In this document: positions 2,625 through 16,065 of the stretch, in pieces
Numbering within the stretch: position 1 is the first letter of the stretch
Layout of the letters: the number at the start of each line of letters is the position of its first letter
Assembly: GCF_012935715.1 (NCBI RefSeq)
Contig: NZ_CP052860.1
Location: 6,262,001-6,326,000 of the forward strand
Length of the DNA stretch: 64,000 bases
Reading direction: 5' to 3'
DNA from: Pseudomonas sp. ADAK13
Lineage (GTDB): Bacteria > Pseudomonadota > Gammaproteobacteria > Pseudomonadales > Pseudomonadaceae
Made by a program: the position numbers and the translations under genes
Notes under the pieces: model-generated
Seen by the model: the letters and a program-made list of their open reading frames with translations, nothing else
What the model was told of the DNA's origin: nothing
Database searches by the model: none

Positions 2625-2650
2625 AGCCGACCTCGTACGTCGGCTTTTTT
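2625..2650 (+). terminator. rho-independent terminator antisense to the leftward operon
   Basis: AGCCGAC (2625-2631) pairs with GTCGGCT (2639-2645) across a 7-base loop and is followed by six T on the + strand. No + strand protein gene lies upstream. It sits between the CII-like and O-like genes, where lambda encodes the antisense OOP RNA. Confidence 0.6.
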
Positions 2651-2661
2651 GTGTCTGAAAT

Positions 2662-3084
2662 TCAGGCGGCCTTAACCGACGCATCCATCACGTCCAGGCT
2701 TTGCCGAACATGATTGATCTCCTGGCGGATCAGGCTCTTCTCGAAAGTGCTGACGTGGTTGTCGTCCAGCGCTTCGTGCACCGCGATCGTCAGGTCGGCA
2801 ACTTCCTTACCTACGTTGATCAGCGACTTGGTGAGCGCTTGCGGCTCCGGCGCCGACTTCGATACCAAGTCAAAGCCGAATTCATTGGCCAGGGCCATCA
2901 ACGGGCGCATGTCGCTGGTGTGCAGCAGGATCCCAAACAGATGCTCCACGGTCAGGTGATGAGCCTCGTTGTCAGGGTTGGCGCGCTGAAGCAGGCCAAC
3001 GTGCGGAATACCCATCTTTGCAGCCAGGGTCTTGGGCTCGTTGCCCTTCACTGCGGCCTGACATGCATCCAAAAAGTCTTCCAT
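2662..3084 (-). CDS. CII-type phage regulatory protein (Phage_CP76 family)
   Basis: A DNA-binding regulator of the prophage CII/CP76 family, which takes part in the lysis-lysogeny choice. The N-terminal helix-turn-helix region (MEDFLDACQAAVKG, then KTLAAKMGIP) and the helical C-terminal half fit that family. The frame is open up to an ATG at 3138. I chose the ATG at 3084 because GAGG lies eight bases upstream and the family pattern begins there, giving 140 residues. It lies downstream of the Cro-like gene and upstream of the O-like gene, the lambda position of cII. Confidence 0.75.
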   Translation of the reverse strand: MEDFLDACQAAVKGNEPKTLAAKMGIPHVGLLQRANPDNEAHHLTVEHLFGILLHTSDMRPLMALANEFGFDLVSKSAPEPQALTKSLINVGKEVADLTIAVHEALDDNHVSTFEKSLIRQEINHVRQSLDVMDASVKAA

Positions 3085-3166
3085 TCGTAAAACCTCAAAT
3101 TTGTTTCCGTGGCGCCCTGCCGATGCAGAAGCGATCATTTGCTCAATGGATCGGCGGACACGGATG

Positions 3167-3346
3167 TCAGGCGGCCTGAGCCTTCTTTGCTGCCTTGAAC
3201 CTGCCCTTGGAGAGAACCTGAATCTGGTATTGCCTGGATTCAGGGATTGTTTCGCCCCACATGGTCACTGCGCTTGGGCGGATACCCAGGGCTAGCGCCA
3301 GCTTTGTCTTGCTGCCGAAGAATTCGGCGACTTCATGCGTGTTCAT
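3167..3346 (-). CDS. Cro-like repressor (59 aa)
   Basis: A 59-residue basic protein, short enough to be missed by length filters. It starts MNTHEVAEFFGSKTKLALAL and has the pattern KTKLALALGIRPSAVTMWGE, typical of the YdaS/Cro helix-turn-helix group, with the usual W-G-E-x-I-P-E-x-R motif right after it. The C-terminus is basic (KAAKKAQAA). The start at 3346 has GAGGATG upstream. It is divergent from the CI-like gene across a shared operator region, so it should repress CI synthesis and favour lytic growth. Confidence 0.82.
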   Translation of the reverse strand: MNTHEVAEFFGSKTKLALALGIRPSAVTMWGETIPESRQYQIQVLSKGRFKAAKKAQAA

Positions 3347-3373: not shown

Positions 3374-3402
3374 ATTTAAGCATGCTTAAGTTATGGCATC
3401 AA
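3374..3402 (-). promoter_or_regulatory. pR-like promoter for cro/cII/O/P operon
   Basis: On the - strand, TTGATG (3402-3397) and TTAAAT (3379-3374) are separated by exactly 17 bases. The -10 lies within the palindromic operator 3376-3389, so repressor binding would block polymerase. The same TTAAAT -10 recurs at the pL-like promoter near 9.1 kb. Confidence 0.65.
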
Positions 3403-3445
3403 CGGTGTTTTCTGCCTACTGCATGCTTAAATTCAGTTAACTTAA
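3376..3445. promoter_or_regulatory. CI/Cro operator cluster (three sites)
   Basis: Site 1 is the perfect palindrome TTAAGCATGCTTAA at 3376-3389. Site 2 is the related sequence ending GCATGCTTAA at 3417-3430. Site 3 is TTCAGTTAACTTAA at 3432-3445, an imperfect palindrome. Three related 14-base sites between divergent cro-like and cI-like genes is the lambda OR plan. Near-identical sites recur at 9069-9082 and 9092-9105. Binding is inferred. Confidence 0.75.
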
Positions 3446-3455: not shown

Positions 3456-4112
3456 ATGGAAAGACACGAACGCATCGCCCGCGCCATACAGGTCAGCGGT
3501 AAAAAGAAAGGAGAAATTGCATCGCTTTGCGGCGTTGCAAATTCTGCCGTTACTCAATGGATTACTGGTGAGAGCAAAAGCCTCAGACCGGAGAACCTTT
3601 ACGCGCTGGCGAAAGCGACTGGCTTCCGGGCCGAGTGGCTTGCTATCGGTGAGGGTGAAGAGCGCGAGGTTTCAGAGTCGAATGTCTCCCCCGCCGTCCA
3701 GCCCACCAAATCATTCCGCTACCCAGTAGTGAGCTGGGTTGCTGCAGGCGCCTGGGCGGAAGCAGTGGAGCCCTACCCGGCCGGGATCTCGGACACCTAC
3801 GAGTTTTCGGAGTACGACGCCAAAGGCCCGGCGTTTTGGCTGACAGTTAAAGGTGACTCAATGACGGCACCCGCCGGCCAGAGCATCACCGAAGGCACGC
3901 TGATCCTTGTGGACACCGAGGCCGAGGTCGCACCAGGTAAGCTGGTAGTGGCCAAGCTACCGGACAGCAACGAAGCTACATTCAAGAAGCTGGTCAGCGA
4001 CGGCGGCCGGCTGTTCCTGAAGCCGCTGAATCCGAGCTACCCGATCGAAGCAGTGGACGAGAACTGCAGGATCGTAGGCGTGGTTGTGCAGGCGCTGCAG
4101 AAGTTTTACTGA
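3456..4112 (+). CDS. CI-type repressor, LexA/S24 self-cleaving family
   Basis: A 218-residue lysogeny repressor. Residues 1-65 form a helix-turn-helix domain (IASLCGVANSAVTQWITGES). Residues 90-218 form an S24 peptidase domain with an Ala-Gly cleavage site in VAAGAW (97-98), nucleophile S135 in KGDSMTAP, and a general-base lysine at about K177 in ATFKKLV. RecA-stimulated self-cleavage, and so induction by DNA damage, is expected of the family. It is divergent from the Cro-like gene and probably binds the operators at 3376-3445 and 9069-9105. Confidence 0.92.
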   Translation: MERHERIARAIQVSGKKKGEIASLCGVANSAVTQWITGESKSLRPENLYALAKATGFRAEWLAIGEGEEREVSESNVSPAVQPTKSFRYPVVSWVAAGAWAEAVEPYPAGISDTYEFSEYDAKGPAFWLTVKGDSMTAPAGQSITEGTLILVDTEAEVAPGKLVVAKLPDSNEATFKKLVSDGGRLFLKPLNPSYPIEAVDENCRIVGVVVQALQKFY

Positions 4113-4206: not shown

Positions 4207-4515
4207 ATGAATGCCTTTCGGATCGCGACTTTAATAGTCGCCCCGCTTTTCATCTCCGGCTGCTACAGCACGCCAAAAGAAAAAACTGAGTACGAAAAAC
4301 AGATCGACGCAGTACCGATGCCTGTAACGGAAGCTGAACGGGTTGAGCAGTGTCGTAACTTCAAGCAAAGCGCAGATTACCAGCGGACTTTGGATATTTT
4401 GCAGTACTCACAGCGATCCAAGCTCGGCGCCTCGTATTTTCAATTTACAGAGTCTCTAGCGCTTTCGCGTCGCCTTAGAGCCATGAAGTGCCCTGGGTAT
4501 GGGTGGTTTTCCTGA
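4207..4515 (+). CDS. small predicted lipoprotein in the rex-like position
   Basis: A 102-residue protein with a short basic N-terminus, a hydrophobic stretch and a lipobox LFISGCYS, so it should be lipidated at the cysteine and held in the envelope. I chose the ATG at 4207 because AAGGGA lies eight bases upstream; a GTG at 4201 has too short a spacing. The mature part is hydrophilic and I do not recognise a domain. It follows the CI-like gene on the same strand, so it may be expressed in the lysogen, as rex genes are. Envelope proteins in this position often block superinfection, but that is only suggestive here. Confidence 0.72.
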   Translation: MNAFRIATLIVAPLFISGCYSTPKEKTEYEKQIDAVPMPVTEAERVEQCRNFKQSADYQRTLDILQYSQRSKLGASYFQFTESLALSRRLRAMKCPGYGWFS

Positions 4516-4537
4516 TGCTGTTGCCTTGGGTGAACCA

Positions 4538-4759
4538 ATGACTGCATGGCGAGAGCAGACCTTCTGGAGCAAGGTAGGGGTCATTGTTTGCCTGGGTCTC
4601 CTTATGATGCTCCCCGGCTATTCTGACGTCGCAGGTCTGGGCGGAGGCTCTTCCGGCCACAAGCGGGTGTTCAGCCCTGGATTCGTTGTACTCTGTGTTT
4701 TCGTGGCGGTGATTGAGCTGATAGCGCTGAACCACTTCTATGGCGTGCGGATTAGGTGA
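4538..4759 (+). CDS. small membrane protein, two predicted membrane segments
   Basis: A 73-residue protein with hydrophobic segments at about residues 12-28 (VGVIVCLGLLMMLPGY) and 50-65 (FVVLCVFVAVIELIAL), joined by a Gly/Ser-rich loop. The frame is open from 4499, but the ATG at 4538 removes overlap with the lipoprotein gene and has GGTGA upstream. No family is recognised. It lies between the lipoprotein and the STAS/GHKL gene on the same strand and may be co-expressed with them. Confidence 0.55.
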   Translation: MTAWREQTFWSKVGVIVCLGLLMMLPGYSDVAGLGGGSSGHKRVFSPGFVVLCVFVAVIELIALNHFYGVRIR

Positions 4760-4874
4760 CGGCGGGGAGGTTGTTTGATAGAAACGAAACAGGCTTGCCA
4801 CAAAATCATTTTAGATGCACATTTATGGTCTAGGGCGATCTGACTGTAACTTTCACAAATTAAAGGGACTTAGA

Positions 4875-6173
4875 ATGTTTCACGAAGGATTTGCAGGTTT
4901 GAGAAAAGCGCTCGAGGAAAAACGTGAAGTGAAACTACAACTACCATCACGATTCTCGTTTAAAGAGCATGATGTTTATGACTTTGACAGGCTTATCAAA
5001 TTCTTCGACTGGGACATATCCAACTCCCCAGTAGAAATAGATCTAACCAAATGCCACACTGCAAACTATCAAGCACTATCTTTACTCGCAATCTATGGAT
5101 GGAAATTGAAATCCCAAGGCTGCAGAGTAACTTTTGTTGAAAACGATAAAACCACCGGCGCCAGCGAAATGTGGCGAACCATGGGGGCTAGAGGTTTGTT
5201 CGCAGTTTTGTTTAACAGCGGCCAGCAATTCAAAGGCAACCATTTCAAGCCGCTTTTTGCTGTTCGAGACGCTAAAGATTTCGGCACAGTAATCCAATCA
5301 GCCGAATCTTATACCGACGGATTCAACGTAGAGTATGAAGGAACACTACGTTACGTTTTGAGCGAACTGCTTTACAATACGATGGAGCACGGAGCGTGCT
5401 TCTCCGGCCCGGCAAACACTAGAATACCCTCGCTGGTTCAGTTCACATGGTACAAACAGAGAAACGAAATTCAATTTATTATTGCGGATCTTGGAATAGG
5501 TATAAAATCCCATGTAGAGCAAGCTTTTTCTGCGCTTGAAAGCGACGAAGAAGCAATTGAGTTCGCGTTGCGAGCCAAAGTATCTGGGACTTTTGGCAGA
5601 AACGACCCATACAAGAATAAAAATAACGCCGGAATGGGTCTATATATATCTTCAAATATCATTCGGCGCCTAAATGCTGATATGCATATATTGTCAGGCA
5701 ATGGCTTGGTTCATATATCTCCGAGAGATGTAACCCGTAGAAGGATGGATACTCGCTGGCCTGGAACTCTTGTTCTTGTATCTTTGCGCCTTGATAAAAA
5801 CTCAACATTCATGCTTCACAAGATAATGCAAGAATTCAGAGAGGCGGCAGATAAAGAGCAGAAGACCGGAGATACTCAAGAAGCCGGAACCAAATACGTA
5901 ATTGGCGTGGAAAACTTTTTTGGCAAATACGCAGAGGATAAAGAGGCAGCAATTAAAATGCGCGACAAAAGAATTTTCCCTGCGCTTGAAGAAGGAAAAA
6001 CAATTCTTATAAATTTTGATAACGTTGTTAGTTCCCCGCATAGTTTTCTGAGCGCGCTGCTTGCCTCTCCAATCAAGGGTTTGGGGATGAATGCGTATAA
6101 AAGAATTAAGATTGTAAATGCAACCGCCGAGATTAGAGAAACCATAGATTTTATATTGGAAGACAACACTTGA
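4875..6173 (+). CDS. STAS-like / GHKL ATPase / DUF4325 protein, likely lysogenic cargo
   Basis: A 432-residue protein with three parts. Residues about 50-90 (VEIDLTKCHTANYQALSLLA) look like a STAS-type fold. Residues 150-310 form a GHKL ATPase: N-box SELLYNTMEHG with E164 and N168, G1 box DLGIGI at about 205, and G2 region NNAGMGLYIS at about 250. The last 75 residues (FDNVVSSPHSFLSALLASPI) resemble the STAS-like DUF4325 domain. AAAGGGA precedes the chosen ATG; the frame is open from 4815. No membrane segment or histidine phosphoacceptor domain is seen, so it is not an ordinary sensor kinase. The gene is clearly AT-richer than its neighbours, a sign of transfer. Its place after cI suggests a defence or exclusion role, which is inference. 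Confidence 0.8.
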   Translation: MFHEGFAGLRKALEEKREVKLQLPSRFSFKEHDVYDFDRLIKFFDWDISNSPVEIDLTKCHTANYQALSLLAIYGWKLKSQGCRVTFVENDKTTGASEMWRTMGARGLFAVLFNSGQQFKGNHFKPLFAVRDAKDFGTVIQSAESYTDGFNVEYEGTLRYVLSELLYNTMEHGACFSGPANTRIPSLVQFTWYKQRNEIQFIIADLGIGIKSHVEQAFSALESDEEAIEFALRAKVSGTFGRNDPYKNKNNAGMGLYISSNIIRRLNADMHILSGNGLVHISPRDVTRRRMDTRWPGTLVLVSLRLDKNSTFMLHKIMQEFREAADKEQKTGDTQEAGTKYVIGVENFFGKYAEDKEAAIKMRDKRIFPALEEGKTILINFDNVVSSPHSFLSALLASPIKGLGMNAYKRIKIVNATAEIRETIDFILEDNT

Positions 6174-6215: not shown

Positions 6216-6326
6216 GTCGATGCGAATGGAGTCGCATTAGTGTCGATTTCTAGGACCGCCTCACAAAAGTGGGTGCCGGCTTCCTCCCGTAAAAAGCCCT
6301 CCTCGTTTTCTTGGAGGGCTTTTTTT
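6216..6326 (+). ncRNA. candidate small RNA of about 110 nt
   Basis: A consensus-type promoter upstream and a strong terminator downstream (AGCCCTCC 6295-6302 pairing with GGAGGGCT 6313-6320, then seven T) frame about 110 bases. The only ORF inside is eight codons long. An internal hairpin ATGCGA/TCGCAT lies near 6220-6240. The ends and the RNA itself are predicted. Alternatively the segment is only a promoter and terminator left by rearrangement. Confidence 0.45.
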
Positions 6327-6839: not shown

Positions 6840-7271
6840 ATGAAAATGACACTACCCGCCCTAGCTTTGGGTGTCCTCATTTCGCAAGGAGCGATGGCAG
6901 CCGGAGATGGCACAGCCGCTCTTGGAGGCGGCGTTGGTGGTGCACTTGGAAACATCGTAGGTCAACAGCTCGGCGGCTCTACAGGCGCGGCGGTAGGTGC
7001 AGGCGTAGGTGGTGCTGCAGGCAGTGCTGTCGGCGCTCAAAGAGGTAACAGAGCGGAAGCTGCATTGGGCGGCGGTATCGGCTCGGCTGGCGGGTCACTT
7101 ATTGGCAATCGCCTCGGCGGAACAACTGGCTCGACGATCGGCGCAGGTCTCGGCGGCGCTGCGGGCGGTGCGCTAGGAAACAACCTAGCGGATGATGAGA
7201 GCAATCATCGATCTGATGGTAAGAAGCACAAAGGCAACAATAAGCATAAACACAAGAACAAGCATCGTTAG
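6840..7271 (+). CDS. secreted glycine-zipper protein
   Basis: A 143-residue protein with a Sec signal peptide (MKMTLPALALGVLISQGAMA, probable cleavage after AMA). The body (about 25-118) is glycine-zipper repeats such as GGSTGAAVGAGVGG and GGTTGSTIGAGLGG, which pack in or on the outer membrane. A hydrophilic tail rich in Lys and His follows (KHKGNNKHKHKNKHR). AGAGG lies upstream of the ATG and a terminator follows the stop. It resembles the YMGG/17-kDa-antigen type of envelope protein. In a prophage lysogenic region it could alter the cell surface, but no function is shown. Confidence 0.78.
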   Translation: MKMTLPALALGVLISQGAMAAGDGTAALGGGVGGALGNIVGQQLGGSTGAAVGAGVGGAAGSAVGAQRGNRAEAALGGGIGSAGGSLIGNRLGGTTGSTIGAGLGGAAGGALGNNLADDESNHRSDGKKHKGNNKHKHKNKHR

Positions 7272-9068: not shown

Positions 9069-9107
9069 TTAAGCATGCTTGACACATTAATTTCAGTTTG
9101 CTTAAAT
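9069..9107 (+). promoter_or_regulatory. pL-like promoter with overlapping CI operators
   Basis: TTGACA (9079-9084), 17 bases, TTAAAT (9102-9107). Operator-like site TTAAGCATGCTTGA (9069-9082) covers the -35, and TTCAGTTTGCTTAA (9092-9105) covers the -10. They differ by one and two bases from sites 1 and 3 of the cI-cro region, 5.7 kb away. A CI-repressed promoter reading towards recombination and integrase genes is what lambda pL is. Confidence 0.75.
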
Positions 9108-9156
9108 TCAACTCAAGCCAGCTACGAAGAACGCCGGCCAGCAGCGAAAGCTGCGC

Positions 9157-9194
9157 CGCTCTTTAGCGACAGCCCTTGCCGGATCACCACCGGC
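9157..9194 (+). promoter_or_regulatory. nut-like antitermination site (boxA and boxB)
   Basis: CGCTCTTTA (9157-9165) matches the boxA consensus. Twelve bases later GCCGG (9178-9182) and CCGGC (9190-9194) form a five-base-pair hairpin with a 7-base loop, as a boxB would. The site lies in the predicted leader of the pL-like transcript, before a short basic ORF. The boxA match is direct; the boxB assignment is inference. Confidence 0.5.
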
Positions 9195-9212
9195 CCAGAT
9201 TCAAAGGCAGCG

Positions 9213-9359
9213 ATGAACCGGCCTAAACGGTTCAGAGGGTTGGCAACTGACCCGGGCGTGCAGCGTAAAGCGCCAAGAACAGTTATCCAGCGGGAGAACA
9301 AGCCGAAAGGCCCGCGGCTGGAGGAACAATTGATTCAAGCCGGTGACCGACGCCAGTAG
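9213..9359 (+). CDS. candidate N-like antiterminator (48 aa, arginine-rich)
   Basis: A 48-residue basic protein with 9 Arg and 4 Lys (starts MNRPKRFRGLATDPG, later VIQRENKPKGPRLEEQL). AAAGG lies upstream of the ATG. The frame is open back to 9075, but that would start inside the promoter. It is the first ORF after the pL-like promoter and the nut-like site, and a terminator lies beyond it, so by position it matches lambda N. N proteins share little sequence, so this rests on position and composition. Confidence 0.45.
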   Translation: MNRPKRFRGLATDPGVQRKAPRTVIQRENKPKGPRLEEQLIQAGDRRQ

Positions 9360-9490
9360 CGGGTCACGGCCAGATCCAAAAGATTTGAATTAGCGAGCCC
9401 GATAGCTTCGGCTGGGCGCGCCGGACCTCATGCACCCTGCCCCACTCAGCCAGGGCATTCAGAGCTGTAGCGTGCATGTTGTAAGGACCT

Positions 9491-14672: not shown

Positions 14673-15351
14673 CGGCCATTTTTGGGTGTATATAAACGCT
14701 ATCGAGCAAATTATCTACGACATCCATTGCCAGATTCAGTTGCTCGGATGTGCTAGGCCTAGCTTCATGAGCTGAATCGTTACCCATTGAGCGAAGTTTG
14801 TGGAGAATATCGGAGCCCGCAGGCGCTAACACTCCCATGCGTACTAGGTCGTCAATTTTCTTATAAAGATTCCCGCCTTCAGCATTCTTATCTTTGCATA
14901 TCATCTCTATGAGGACACGGACCCCGAGACCGGCCAATATTTTCTGCCCTCCGTTGAGTGCTTGAATCAACTCTTCGTAAGCAGCACGAACCTTGACAGG
15001 TAAATGTTGTATACCTTTAAGTCTAAACCTACCTGCAGTTCTGCTCGGATACACATCGATTACACTGTAATAAACAACCTCATCTATTTCAGGATCATAA
15101 TCCGCCGAATTAGAATCTGTGTACTCTTTCCTAAACGATAAGTCATCGCAATTCAAACACTGAACAATTTCATATTCTGTAAGTGCCGTGTCGTAATCGT
15201 CTTCAACTTTTCTACGAACAGATTGAACGACATTATGTTTTTGCTCAATCTTGCAAACTTCACAGATTAGGCGAACCGTTGCTCCTTTGGTTTCACCTTC
15301 AATATACGTTCTCTTGTACATATCTGATCTCGATCTGTTATCCGGCTCCAT
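14650..15351 (-). CDS. DUF4145 domain protein (opposite-strand cargo)
   Basis: A 233-residue protein. The N-terminal part has a probable zinc knuckle (CEVCKIEQKHNV and CLNCDD). The C-terminal part (AAYEELIQALNGGQ through LRSMGNDSAHEA) matches DUF4145, a helical domain often found near restriction and other defence genes. I chose the ATG at 15351, with GGGAG upstream; the open frame continues to 15756, but that part is a shadow of the next + gene. Base composition is AT-richer than the flanks and the gene reads against the operon, so it looks acquired. A defence role is only suggested. Confidence 0.78.
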   Translation of the reverse strand: MEPDNRSRSDMYKRTYIEGETKGATVRLICEVCKIEQKHNVVQSVRRKVEDDYDTALTEYEIVQCLNCDDLSFRKEYTDSNSADYDPEIDEVVYYSVIDVYPSRTAGRFRLKGIQHLPVKVRAAYEELIQALNGGQKILAGLGVRVLIEMICKDKNAEGGNLYKKIDDLVRMGVLAPAGSDILHKLRSMGNDSAHEARPSTSEQLNLAMDVVDNLLDSVYIHPKMAATVFPEK

Positions 15352-15432
15352 GCCGGCTCCCAGTAATACCCCACCCCAAACCAAATTGCCACCATCCGGT
15401 AACGGAGGGCGGCGCCTGACTGGAGATAATCC

Positions 15433-16065
15433 ATGGACGACCAGTTCTATCTGCAAGACAGTCGCAGTCACGTCGGTGATGGCCTTACCTTCCACGGGAA
15501 AGCTCACCGCGGCTACTACACCGATCTGGACAAGTGCGAGCTGTACACCAAAGAGAAGGCCTGCGGCCACCGTGACACTGACATCCCATGGCCGAAGCAG
15601 TACATCGACGAACGTGCCCACTATGGCGTCGACTGCCAGTTGATGGACGAGCAAGCCAGCAATGCCATGCTGGAGCCAGGGTGCCGCGTCTATATGCAAG
15701 TGCCAGGCAGTTGGAACGGCAATGACGTCTACTGGATGGGCTGGAACAAGGGTCAAGTCACTGCGGACCTAGGCCGCGCCTGCAACCTCAACTTGGAGCA
15801 GTCGCGGATTGAGTTCGCTGCTGAACTGTCGGCCGGAACGCAAAAGCTCTGGTCCGCTGACTACATCGAATCCATACGCCGCCGACTGGTTTGGCGCCAG
15901 GACGTTGATCTCAAACAGGCACTGCGCGGCACCGGTATAAAGTTGCCTAAACCGAAAAAACCACGGGAAGAGGTTTTCAACTGTGGCGGTTGCGGCCGGT
16001 TCATCAGCTACATGCAGCGCTACCGGGAAGATTGCCAGAACTGCGACAAGAACAACGCACCTTAA
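15433..16065 (+). CDS. phage hypothetical protein with C-terminal zinc ribbon
   Basis: A 210-residue protein. The N-terminal two thirds are rich in aromatic residues (MDDQFYLQDSRSHVGDGLTF). The end carries CGGCGRFISYMQRYREDCQNC, here with two CxxC pairs of a small zinc ribbon. GGAGAT lies before the ATG. No family recognised. It continues the + operon after the DUF4145 interruption. Confidence 0.65.
   Translation: MDDQFYLQDSRSHVGDGLTFHGKAHRGYYTDLDKCELYTKEKACGHRDTDIPWPKQYIDERAHYGVDCQLMDEQASNAMLEPGCRVYMQVPGSWNGNDVYWMGWNKGQVTADLGRACNLNLEQSRIEFAAELSAGTQKLWSADYIESIRRRLVWRQDVDLKQALRGTGIKLPKPKKPREEVFNCGGCGRFISYMQRYREDCQNCDKNNAP

Follow-up and report, generated by a model that had tools for sequence, protein, structure and literature searches.

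The DNA analysed here, 64,000 nucleotides in length and referred to as the window, corresponds to bases 6262001-6326000 of the 7.3-Mb single-contig genome of Pseudomonas sp. ADAK13, and its first 9.1 kb form a lambda-like immunity region in mirror-image layout, as deduced from Pfam and PHROGs matches. The gene under study, located on the plus strand at 4875-6173, encodes a 432-amino-acid protein in which a predicted kinase is fused to its candidate substrate. A cI-type repressor gene with helix-turn-helix (HTH) and S24 peptidase domains (3456-4112, plus strand; Pfam/PHROGs) ends 762 bp upstream of it, and the minus strand holds genes for Cro (3167-3346; P22_Cro, E 2e-18, Pfam) and a CII-like activator (2662-3138; Phage_CP76, E 2.5e-24, Pfam). 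The interval between cro and cI contains an operator region (3376-3430, no strand assigned), with the palindrome TTAAGCATGCTTAA at 3376-3389 and a copy with 3 mismatches at 3417-3430. A second pair, at 9069-9082 (1 mismatch) and 9092-9105 (3 mismatches), marks a second operator region (9069-9108, no strand assigned) that includes a rightward, PL-like promoter site, TTGACA-18-TAAATT at 9079-9108 (three such sites vs. 4.7 expected by chance). At up to 3 mismatches, six matches to the palindrome were detected in the 64 kb vs. 1.16 expected, and none of 100 shuffles reached six; the remaining two lie elsewhere in the window, at 14878 and 27588. The interval from cI to the second operator pair was taken as the cargo, and these matching palindromes bear out a preliminary description of this DNA, which had placed 4207-6173 in the rex position between two operator regions. 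The lipoprotein open reading frame (ORF), the small membrane protein ORF and the large ORF that it had listed there were all present, and the large gene was AT-rich as described, with a GC content of 0.41-0.45 (500-base windows) vs. 0.53-0.58 upstream and 0.50-0.58 downstream. Another AT-rich stretch was observed at 14751-15500 (GC 0.43-0.44).

Translation of the fused gene was assigned to the Met codon at 4875, which follows AAAGGGA and is shared by the homologues, rather than to position 4815 given in the ORF list. The protein was characterized by Pfam, PHROGs, alignments, AlphaFold2 (AF2) models and fold searches, and comprises a STAS-like N-terminal part (residues ~18-130), a GHKL ATPase (~131-310) with the residues E164, N168 and D205/G207/G209, and a STAS-like tail (~340-432) belonging to DUF4325, a domain with no assigned function. 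Pfam scored HATPase_c (157-274, E 6.8e-6) and DUF4325 (359-419, E 7.4e-6) just above its cut-off, in agreement with the architecture first proposed; in PHROGs, phrog_5816, of unknown function, matched the full length (E 2e-218) and phrog_3364 was also matched (E 3e-29). The AF2 models placed the middle part nearest to SpoIIAB/RsbW and the tail nearest to RsbV/SpoIIAA, and in a viral structure library the best match was an unnamed 233-amino-acid protein (E 1e-8), and phage DUF4325 proteins ranked 18th and 19th (E 0.01-0.02). No HisKA or receiver domain was found among the Pfam matches at E <=1; a histidine kinase identity was therefore ruled out, the nearest folds being those of the Ser kinases SpoIIAB and RsbW, and the earlier statement that this is not a two-component kinase holds. 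HTH families were likewise absent from the Pfam matches at E <=1, nor did Pfam reveal a DNA-binding domain. None of the three window proteins matched a PADLOC family at E <=1.

The preliminary description had denied the protein a phosphoacceptor, a claim that the C-terminal domain contradicts. An alignment of 43 sequences (32 fused tails and 11 stand-alone substrate proteins) contained one invariant column, S390, encoded by the codon at 6042-6044 (plus strand) and corresponding to column S55 of the alignment fragment starting at residue 336. Together with E164, N168, D205, G207 and G209, this serine was also invariant across the 119 aligned rows of the fused set. In the AF2 model it lies at the start of a predicted helix (389-410), matching the feature of the CapKS and VapKSC systems, a Ser that opens the second STAS helix. 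According to the available excerpts of the report on these systems (Chambers and colleagues, EMBO J 2026, PMC13373217), in which SpoIIAB-like kinases trigger bacterial immunity upon DNA damage, CapK (HTH-STAS-GHKL) is a kinase activated by single-stranded DNA (ssDNA) whose target is S54 of CapS, a STAS repressor, and CapKS regulates transcription; in VapKSC, phosphorylation of VapS S48 is proposed to release the VapC toxin, and protection by the vapKSC genes against one phage amounted to about 2 logs. A published oligonucleotide led to the E. coli record that encodes CapK (WP_001567866.1) and CapS (WP_001567865.1). In a multiple alignment of 12 fused proteins, 15 stand-alone substrates and 5 CapS or CapS-like proteins, all 32 carried Ser in the S390/S54 column. 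Because this invariant Ser occupies the place of the CapS phosphoserine, S390 is a strong candidate phosphoacceptor, the putative phosphoserine of the fused protein. The kinship extends to the kinase half, for which pairwise hhalign between the GHKL parts of the fused family and CapK gave E 3e-7, and phrog_3364 is matched by both proteins. When the tail profile was run against all PDB sequences, VapS ranked first (E 0.026), while neither VapS nor CapS appeared in the fold-search list of the tail (library to April 2026). In two Pseudomonas loci, L073 and L074, a CapKS-like pair precedes a small repeat protein resembling YegP by eye, and a YegP-like protein after CapKS is reported for other species in the same excerpts (PMC13373217).

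The same kinase and substrate families were found as separate genes in an operon, designated K-S-M, composed of a STAS-GHKL kinase (K), a DUF4325 substrate (S) and a third small, often membrane-type protein (M). A search of 298 Pseudomonas genomes with phrog_3364 yielded matches in 53, many of them marginal; longer stretches were taken for 20 of the stronger matches and their gene order was read by eye. In 13 of these, K was followed by a DUF4325-like S (106-125 amino acids) and then by M (158-198 amino acids), two showed S only (93-95 amino acids) after K, with an adjoining integrase-like gene, and in five no S was seen. Fifteen Pseudomonas S proteins aligned with the fused tail, and the two that were scanned matched the C-terminal quarter of phrog_5816 (E 1e-15 and 4e-15) and PF14213. 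An S-pattern scan of IMG/VR, from which the best 80 of 176 relatives were kept, with a bias toward the Pseudomonas type, placed K next to S in 72/80 loci and both K and M in 68/80, and 5 of the 8 kept loci lacking K start less than 500 bp from a contig end. All 80 kept loci carried Ser-Phe at the phosphoacceptor place of S; these two residues were adjacent to, but outside, the pattern used in the scan. Of the K-containing loci, 64 had 1.5 kb or more of upstream sequence, and in 27 of these a cI-type repressor was encoded on the same strand within 1.2 kb upstream of K, vs. 14 of 394 other ORFs of those loci (odds ratio 19.8, the loci being related, so that the P value overstates the association). 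UmuD-type proteins (L036:8541-9074 and L012:7874-8305), which match the cI-derived hidden Markov model (HMM) through the common S24 domain, were set aside in the count of repressor neighbours of the fused loci. The K-S-M loci (L078-L092, L098 and L100-L179) are common in temperate phages, often directly behind cI.

M forms one family, since 77 of 82 third genes fell in one cluster and 79 of 82 were recognized by an HMM built from it. A 19-residue stretch with mean hydropathy of at least 1.6 was present in 41/65 viral and 9/14 Pseudomonas M proteins, vs. 53/277 other ORFs of similar size. Neither the M proteins nor the other K-S-M members that were scanned matched PADLOC, and these M proteins had no Pfam match at cut-off. 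Against the PDB, the stand-alone K matched RsbW (E 0.025), the stand-alone S profile gave two chance-level matches and the M family one (E 1.5). Beyond Pseudomonas, the isolate Marinobacter phage AS1 has the order cro, short repressor-like gene, K, S and M, with K-S-M as genes 41-39 and an M recognized by the M HMM (E 3e-31), and a Helicobacter prophage has K, S and then a small gene without an M HMM match. In Francisella phage KIRK, as given in excerpts of its description (PMC7924643), cI is followed by a 293-amino-acid protein (23% identity to phage AS1), a 112-amino-acid DUF4325 protein and a 125-amino-acid transmembrane protein. No description of the fused form or of K-S-M was found in open-licence PMC papers.

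Fused and unfused forms were found in the same genomic place when the window DNA was compared with 20 chosen loci. On the cII side, 2625-3144 was 82% identical to K-S-M locus L102, with shorter matching pieces in L091 and L101; the right flank (9154-9370, plus strand), which lies within and behind the ORF 9075-9359, showed 89-98% DNA identity to the K-S-M loci L091, L092, L100, L101 and L102. The DNA of the fused gene itself aligned only to the fused loci L031-L035. Since the flanks match on both sides and the cargo differs, related prophages hold either form in one slot. In a 94-row tree built from the kinase part, the fused form was one clade (support 99/97), consistent with a single fusion event, although long branches make the sister group unsure; the split kinases without M of L087 and L090 joined this clade, a placement subject to a long-branch warning and not built upon.

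Homologues of the fused protein numbered 726 at E <=1e-3 (the best 120 listed). The gene was present in 2/298 Pseudomonas genomes and 4/369 genomes of the class, this one counted in both and two of the four being marginal matches to the GHKL part only, which agrees with the earlier view of an accessory rather than a housekeeping gene. A DNA-pattern scan, whose counts are lower bounds given its pattern seeds, detected at least 29 loci in a collection of 84,980 genomes and at least 11 in IMG/VR. Phage isolate records contained one distant match (E 1e-5) and 14 at E <=10, and no match was found in plasmids.

The domains, the invariant serine, the folds, the unfused relatives and the shared slot are sequence- and prediction-based observations, from which we infer lysogenic expression, kinase activity, an ssDNA trigger, an output and phage exclusion. 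On this basis we consider it reasonably probable that the 432-amino-acid protein is a one-chain partner switch, in which a serine kinase of the SpoIIAB/CapK/VapK type is joined to its own DUF4325 substrate, and which is predicted to be triggered by ssDNA or DNA damage to the advantage of the prophage. Expression of the cI operon in the lysogen would supply the protein; DNA of a foreign phage or damaged DNA would turn on the STAS-GHKL half, together with ATP, as suggested by kinship with the ssDNA-activated CapK; S390 of the same chain or of an adjacent one would then be phosphorylated; the tail would thereupon release or gain a partner; and growth of the cell or the phage would shift to the benefit of the prophage, through exclusion or through a damage-tuned lysogeny response. 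The probable partner in K-S-M is M. A conserved host protein as partner of the fusion would fit the degree to which the fused protein is conserved (mean column identity of 55% across 119 rows drawn from several phyla, vs. 36% across 12 rows of stand-alone kinases), a comparison that is only a hint because the sets were chosen differently and most fused rows are near the query. A role in phage exclusion or defence is a guess drawn from the kinship to CapKS/VapKSC and from the position.

Comparison with known systems places the protein outside both CapKS and VapKSC because defining parts are missing, yet it probably works like one of them. VapKSC of Escherichia (PMC13373217), compared through VapS and, for VapK, by its description, shares an HTH-less STAS-GHKL kinase and a small STAS substrate with a phosphoacceptor Ser, but the excerpts describe three separate genes including the VapC nuclease, whereas the window has one chain and no VapC: no PIN nuclease match was found by Pfam among the neighbouring window proteins scanned, and the next ORFs up to 6840 are short. 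With CapK and CapS the likeness consists of the GHKL homology, the common phrog_3364 match and the S390/S54 register; the fused protein differs in lacking the kinase HTH, the winged HTH of the substrate and an adjacent immune operon, the chain ending at residue 432 with the substrate domain in place of a separate CapS-type repressor. Both halves are nearest in fold to SpoIIAB/SpoIIAA and RsbW/RsbV, from which the protein is set apart by the fusion, the additional N-terminal STAS-like part and the absence of a visible sigma partner. K-S-M, with the same families in the same slot behind cI, differs in its unfused genes and in M. RexAB of lambda and RexABpp of P. putida (PMC12894663) are also prophage-borne and located behind cI, but are distinguished by description, the excerpts presenting a DNA-binding protein and a membrane effector, and no kinase.

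Several observations weigh against the one-chain switch. The hhalign comparison that sets S390 against CapS S54 is not significant by itself, and in the HMMER alignment VapS S48 (numbered in its own chain) falls one residue before S390, a one-residue ambiguity of register. The aromatic residue conserved for ssDNA activation (W68 in CapK, F54 in VapK, according to the same excerpts of PMC13373217) has no certain equivalent in a region where the alignment is unreliable, F27, F29 and F37 being candidates. The full-length profile had no match among PDB sequences, no defence phenotype is known, and LexA-like boxes were not enriched upstream of the gene (7/37 vs. 82/740 random windows), so that LexA control was not supported. 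A repressor- or integrase-like ORF lay within 600 bp in only 11 of the 40 fused loci fetched (L016, with a 124-amino-acid HTH protein; L020, with a 72-amino-acid piece; L021, L022, L031-L034, L036, L037 and L041), these including near-duplicates and UmuD hits being excluded; many copies have no phage gene nearby. Lastly, no conserved effector gene was found beside the fusion, and the M HMM gave no match in the window or in loci L002-L045.

As for the expectation of defence islands, the neighbour scan drew on 27 of the 29 genome-contig loci, with L008 (over-long ORF only) and L030 (short partial match) omitted, and covered 105 ORFs lying up to 2.7 kb from them (110-800 amino acids, longest-ORF choice, some perhaps not genes). 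Among the 25 of 99 Pfam families shown none had more than 3 members (HTH_3, 3; Phage_integrase, rve, Radical_SAM, HTH_31, PIN and TadE, 2 each), and each PADLOC family (25 of 106 shown) had a single one, so that defence genes are scattered, e.g. one EcoRII-type restriction system and one AbiGi-like match, and with no control set enrichment is neither shown nor excluded. In Alteromonas oceani (L003:11457-14529) the fused gene adjoins an EcoRII-like nuclease, a short ORF that is Vsr-like by eye and a cytosine methylase.

An explanation that we regard as unlikely makes the protein a damage-tuned regulator of its own prophage, one that helps to choose between lysogeny and induction and leaves other phages unaffected. 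The position behind cI would suit it, as would the transcriptional role of CapKS (PMC13373217, excerpts) and the neighbours of some copies, since Pfam identified an adjoining UmuC-type polymerase gene in L012, L036 and L038, accompanied by a UmuD-type gene in L012 and L036 and by a gene for an SOS response-associated peptidase (SRAP) in L036, of which L037 is a near-copy; the UmuC and SRAP neighbours are a hint of a link with DNA damage. This explanation is opposed by the lack of a DNA-binding domain (Pfam), the many copies outside recognizable prophages and the LexA boxes, which are not enriched. Similarly improbable is an anti-sigma-like controller of a host sigma factor or other conserved host protein, serving general stress fitness and not phage defence. 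The SpoIIAB/SpoIIAA and RsbW/RsbV folds of both halves point in that direction, and the 55% vs. 36% identity looks, as a hint only, as if a host partner constrained the fusion, but recent transfer could also explain this conservation, and sigma-factor genes were absent both from the neighbours listed and from the 25 families displayed out of 99. That the gene is a decayed or selfish passenger with no effect would agree with the sporadic occurrence (2/298 and 4/369 genomes, with the reservations given above) and with the absence of a constant neighbour, but is very improbable given the six residues invariant in 119 rows.

The one-chain partner switch, with its relatives, suggests that phages carry a CapKS/VapKSC-like switch in the lysogeny region, either unfused with a third protein or as one chain. 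DUF4325 would thereby gain a testable role as phosphoacceptor, and the fusion lends itself to such a test, being encoded by one gene and offering one candidate Ser; the rex slot becomes a place to seek kinase-gated exclusion systems, and K-S-M, found along the way, is an undescribed phage operon within the literature searched. A wider proposal is offered tentatively: temperate phages may keep this switch family behind the repressor to sense foreign-phage or damaged DNA, the widespread K-S-M operon firing a small membrane effector and so resembling a RexAB under kinase control, while the fusion would be a self-contained version in one gene that targets a conserved host protein. This proposal requires a membrane effector, but the hydropathy of M reaches only 1.3 in the nearest relatives of the window (L091 and L100-L102), and our already limited confidence in it was therefore lowered slightly.

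The two genes between cI and the fusion had been suggested to form a module with it, which the other loci do not support. The first (4207-4515, plus strand, ATG start) encodes a lipoprotein with a signal and lipobox recognized by eye, and the second (4538-4759, plus strand, ATG start) a 73-amino-acid membrane protein with two hydrophobic segments (phrog_29612, E 1e-35). Homologues of the lipoprotein were found in 0/186 other loci, some of which are short or nested, and the membrane protein had one in 1/186, L101 (80% identity), where its gene sits between cI and an unfused K-S-M operon and where a crude filter detected no lipoprotein ahead of the switch. Because of these counts both are independent slot genes, and a single module of lipoprotein, membrane protein and kinase was ruled out for want of shared occurrence. 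Downstream of the fused gene, a perfect 12-bp inverted repeat with a 10-base loop followed by a T-run (6291-6324, plus strand) probably acts as a terminator; the terminator scan, which allowed loops of up to 8, did not list it. The immunity region also encodes, at 6840-7271, a Gly-zipper protein with a signal-like start (Pfam Gly-zipper; phrog_22557, E 2e-63).
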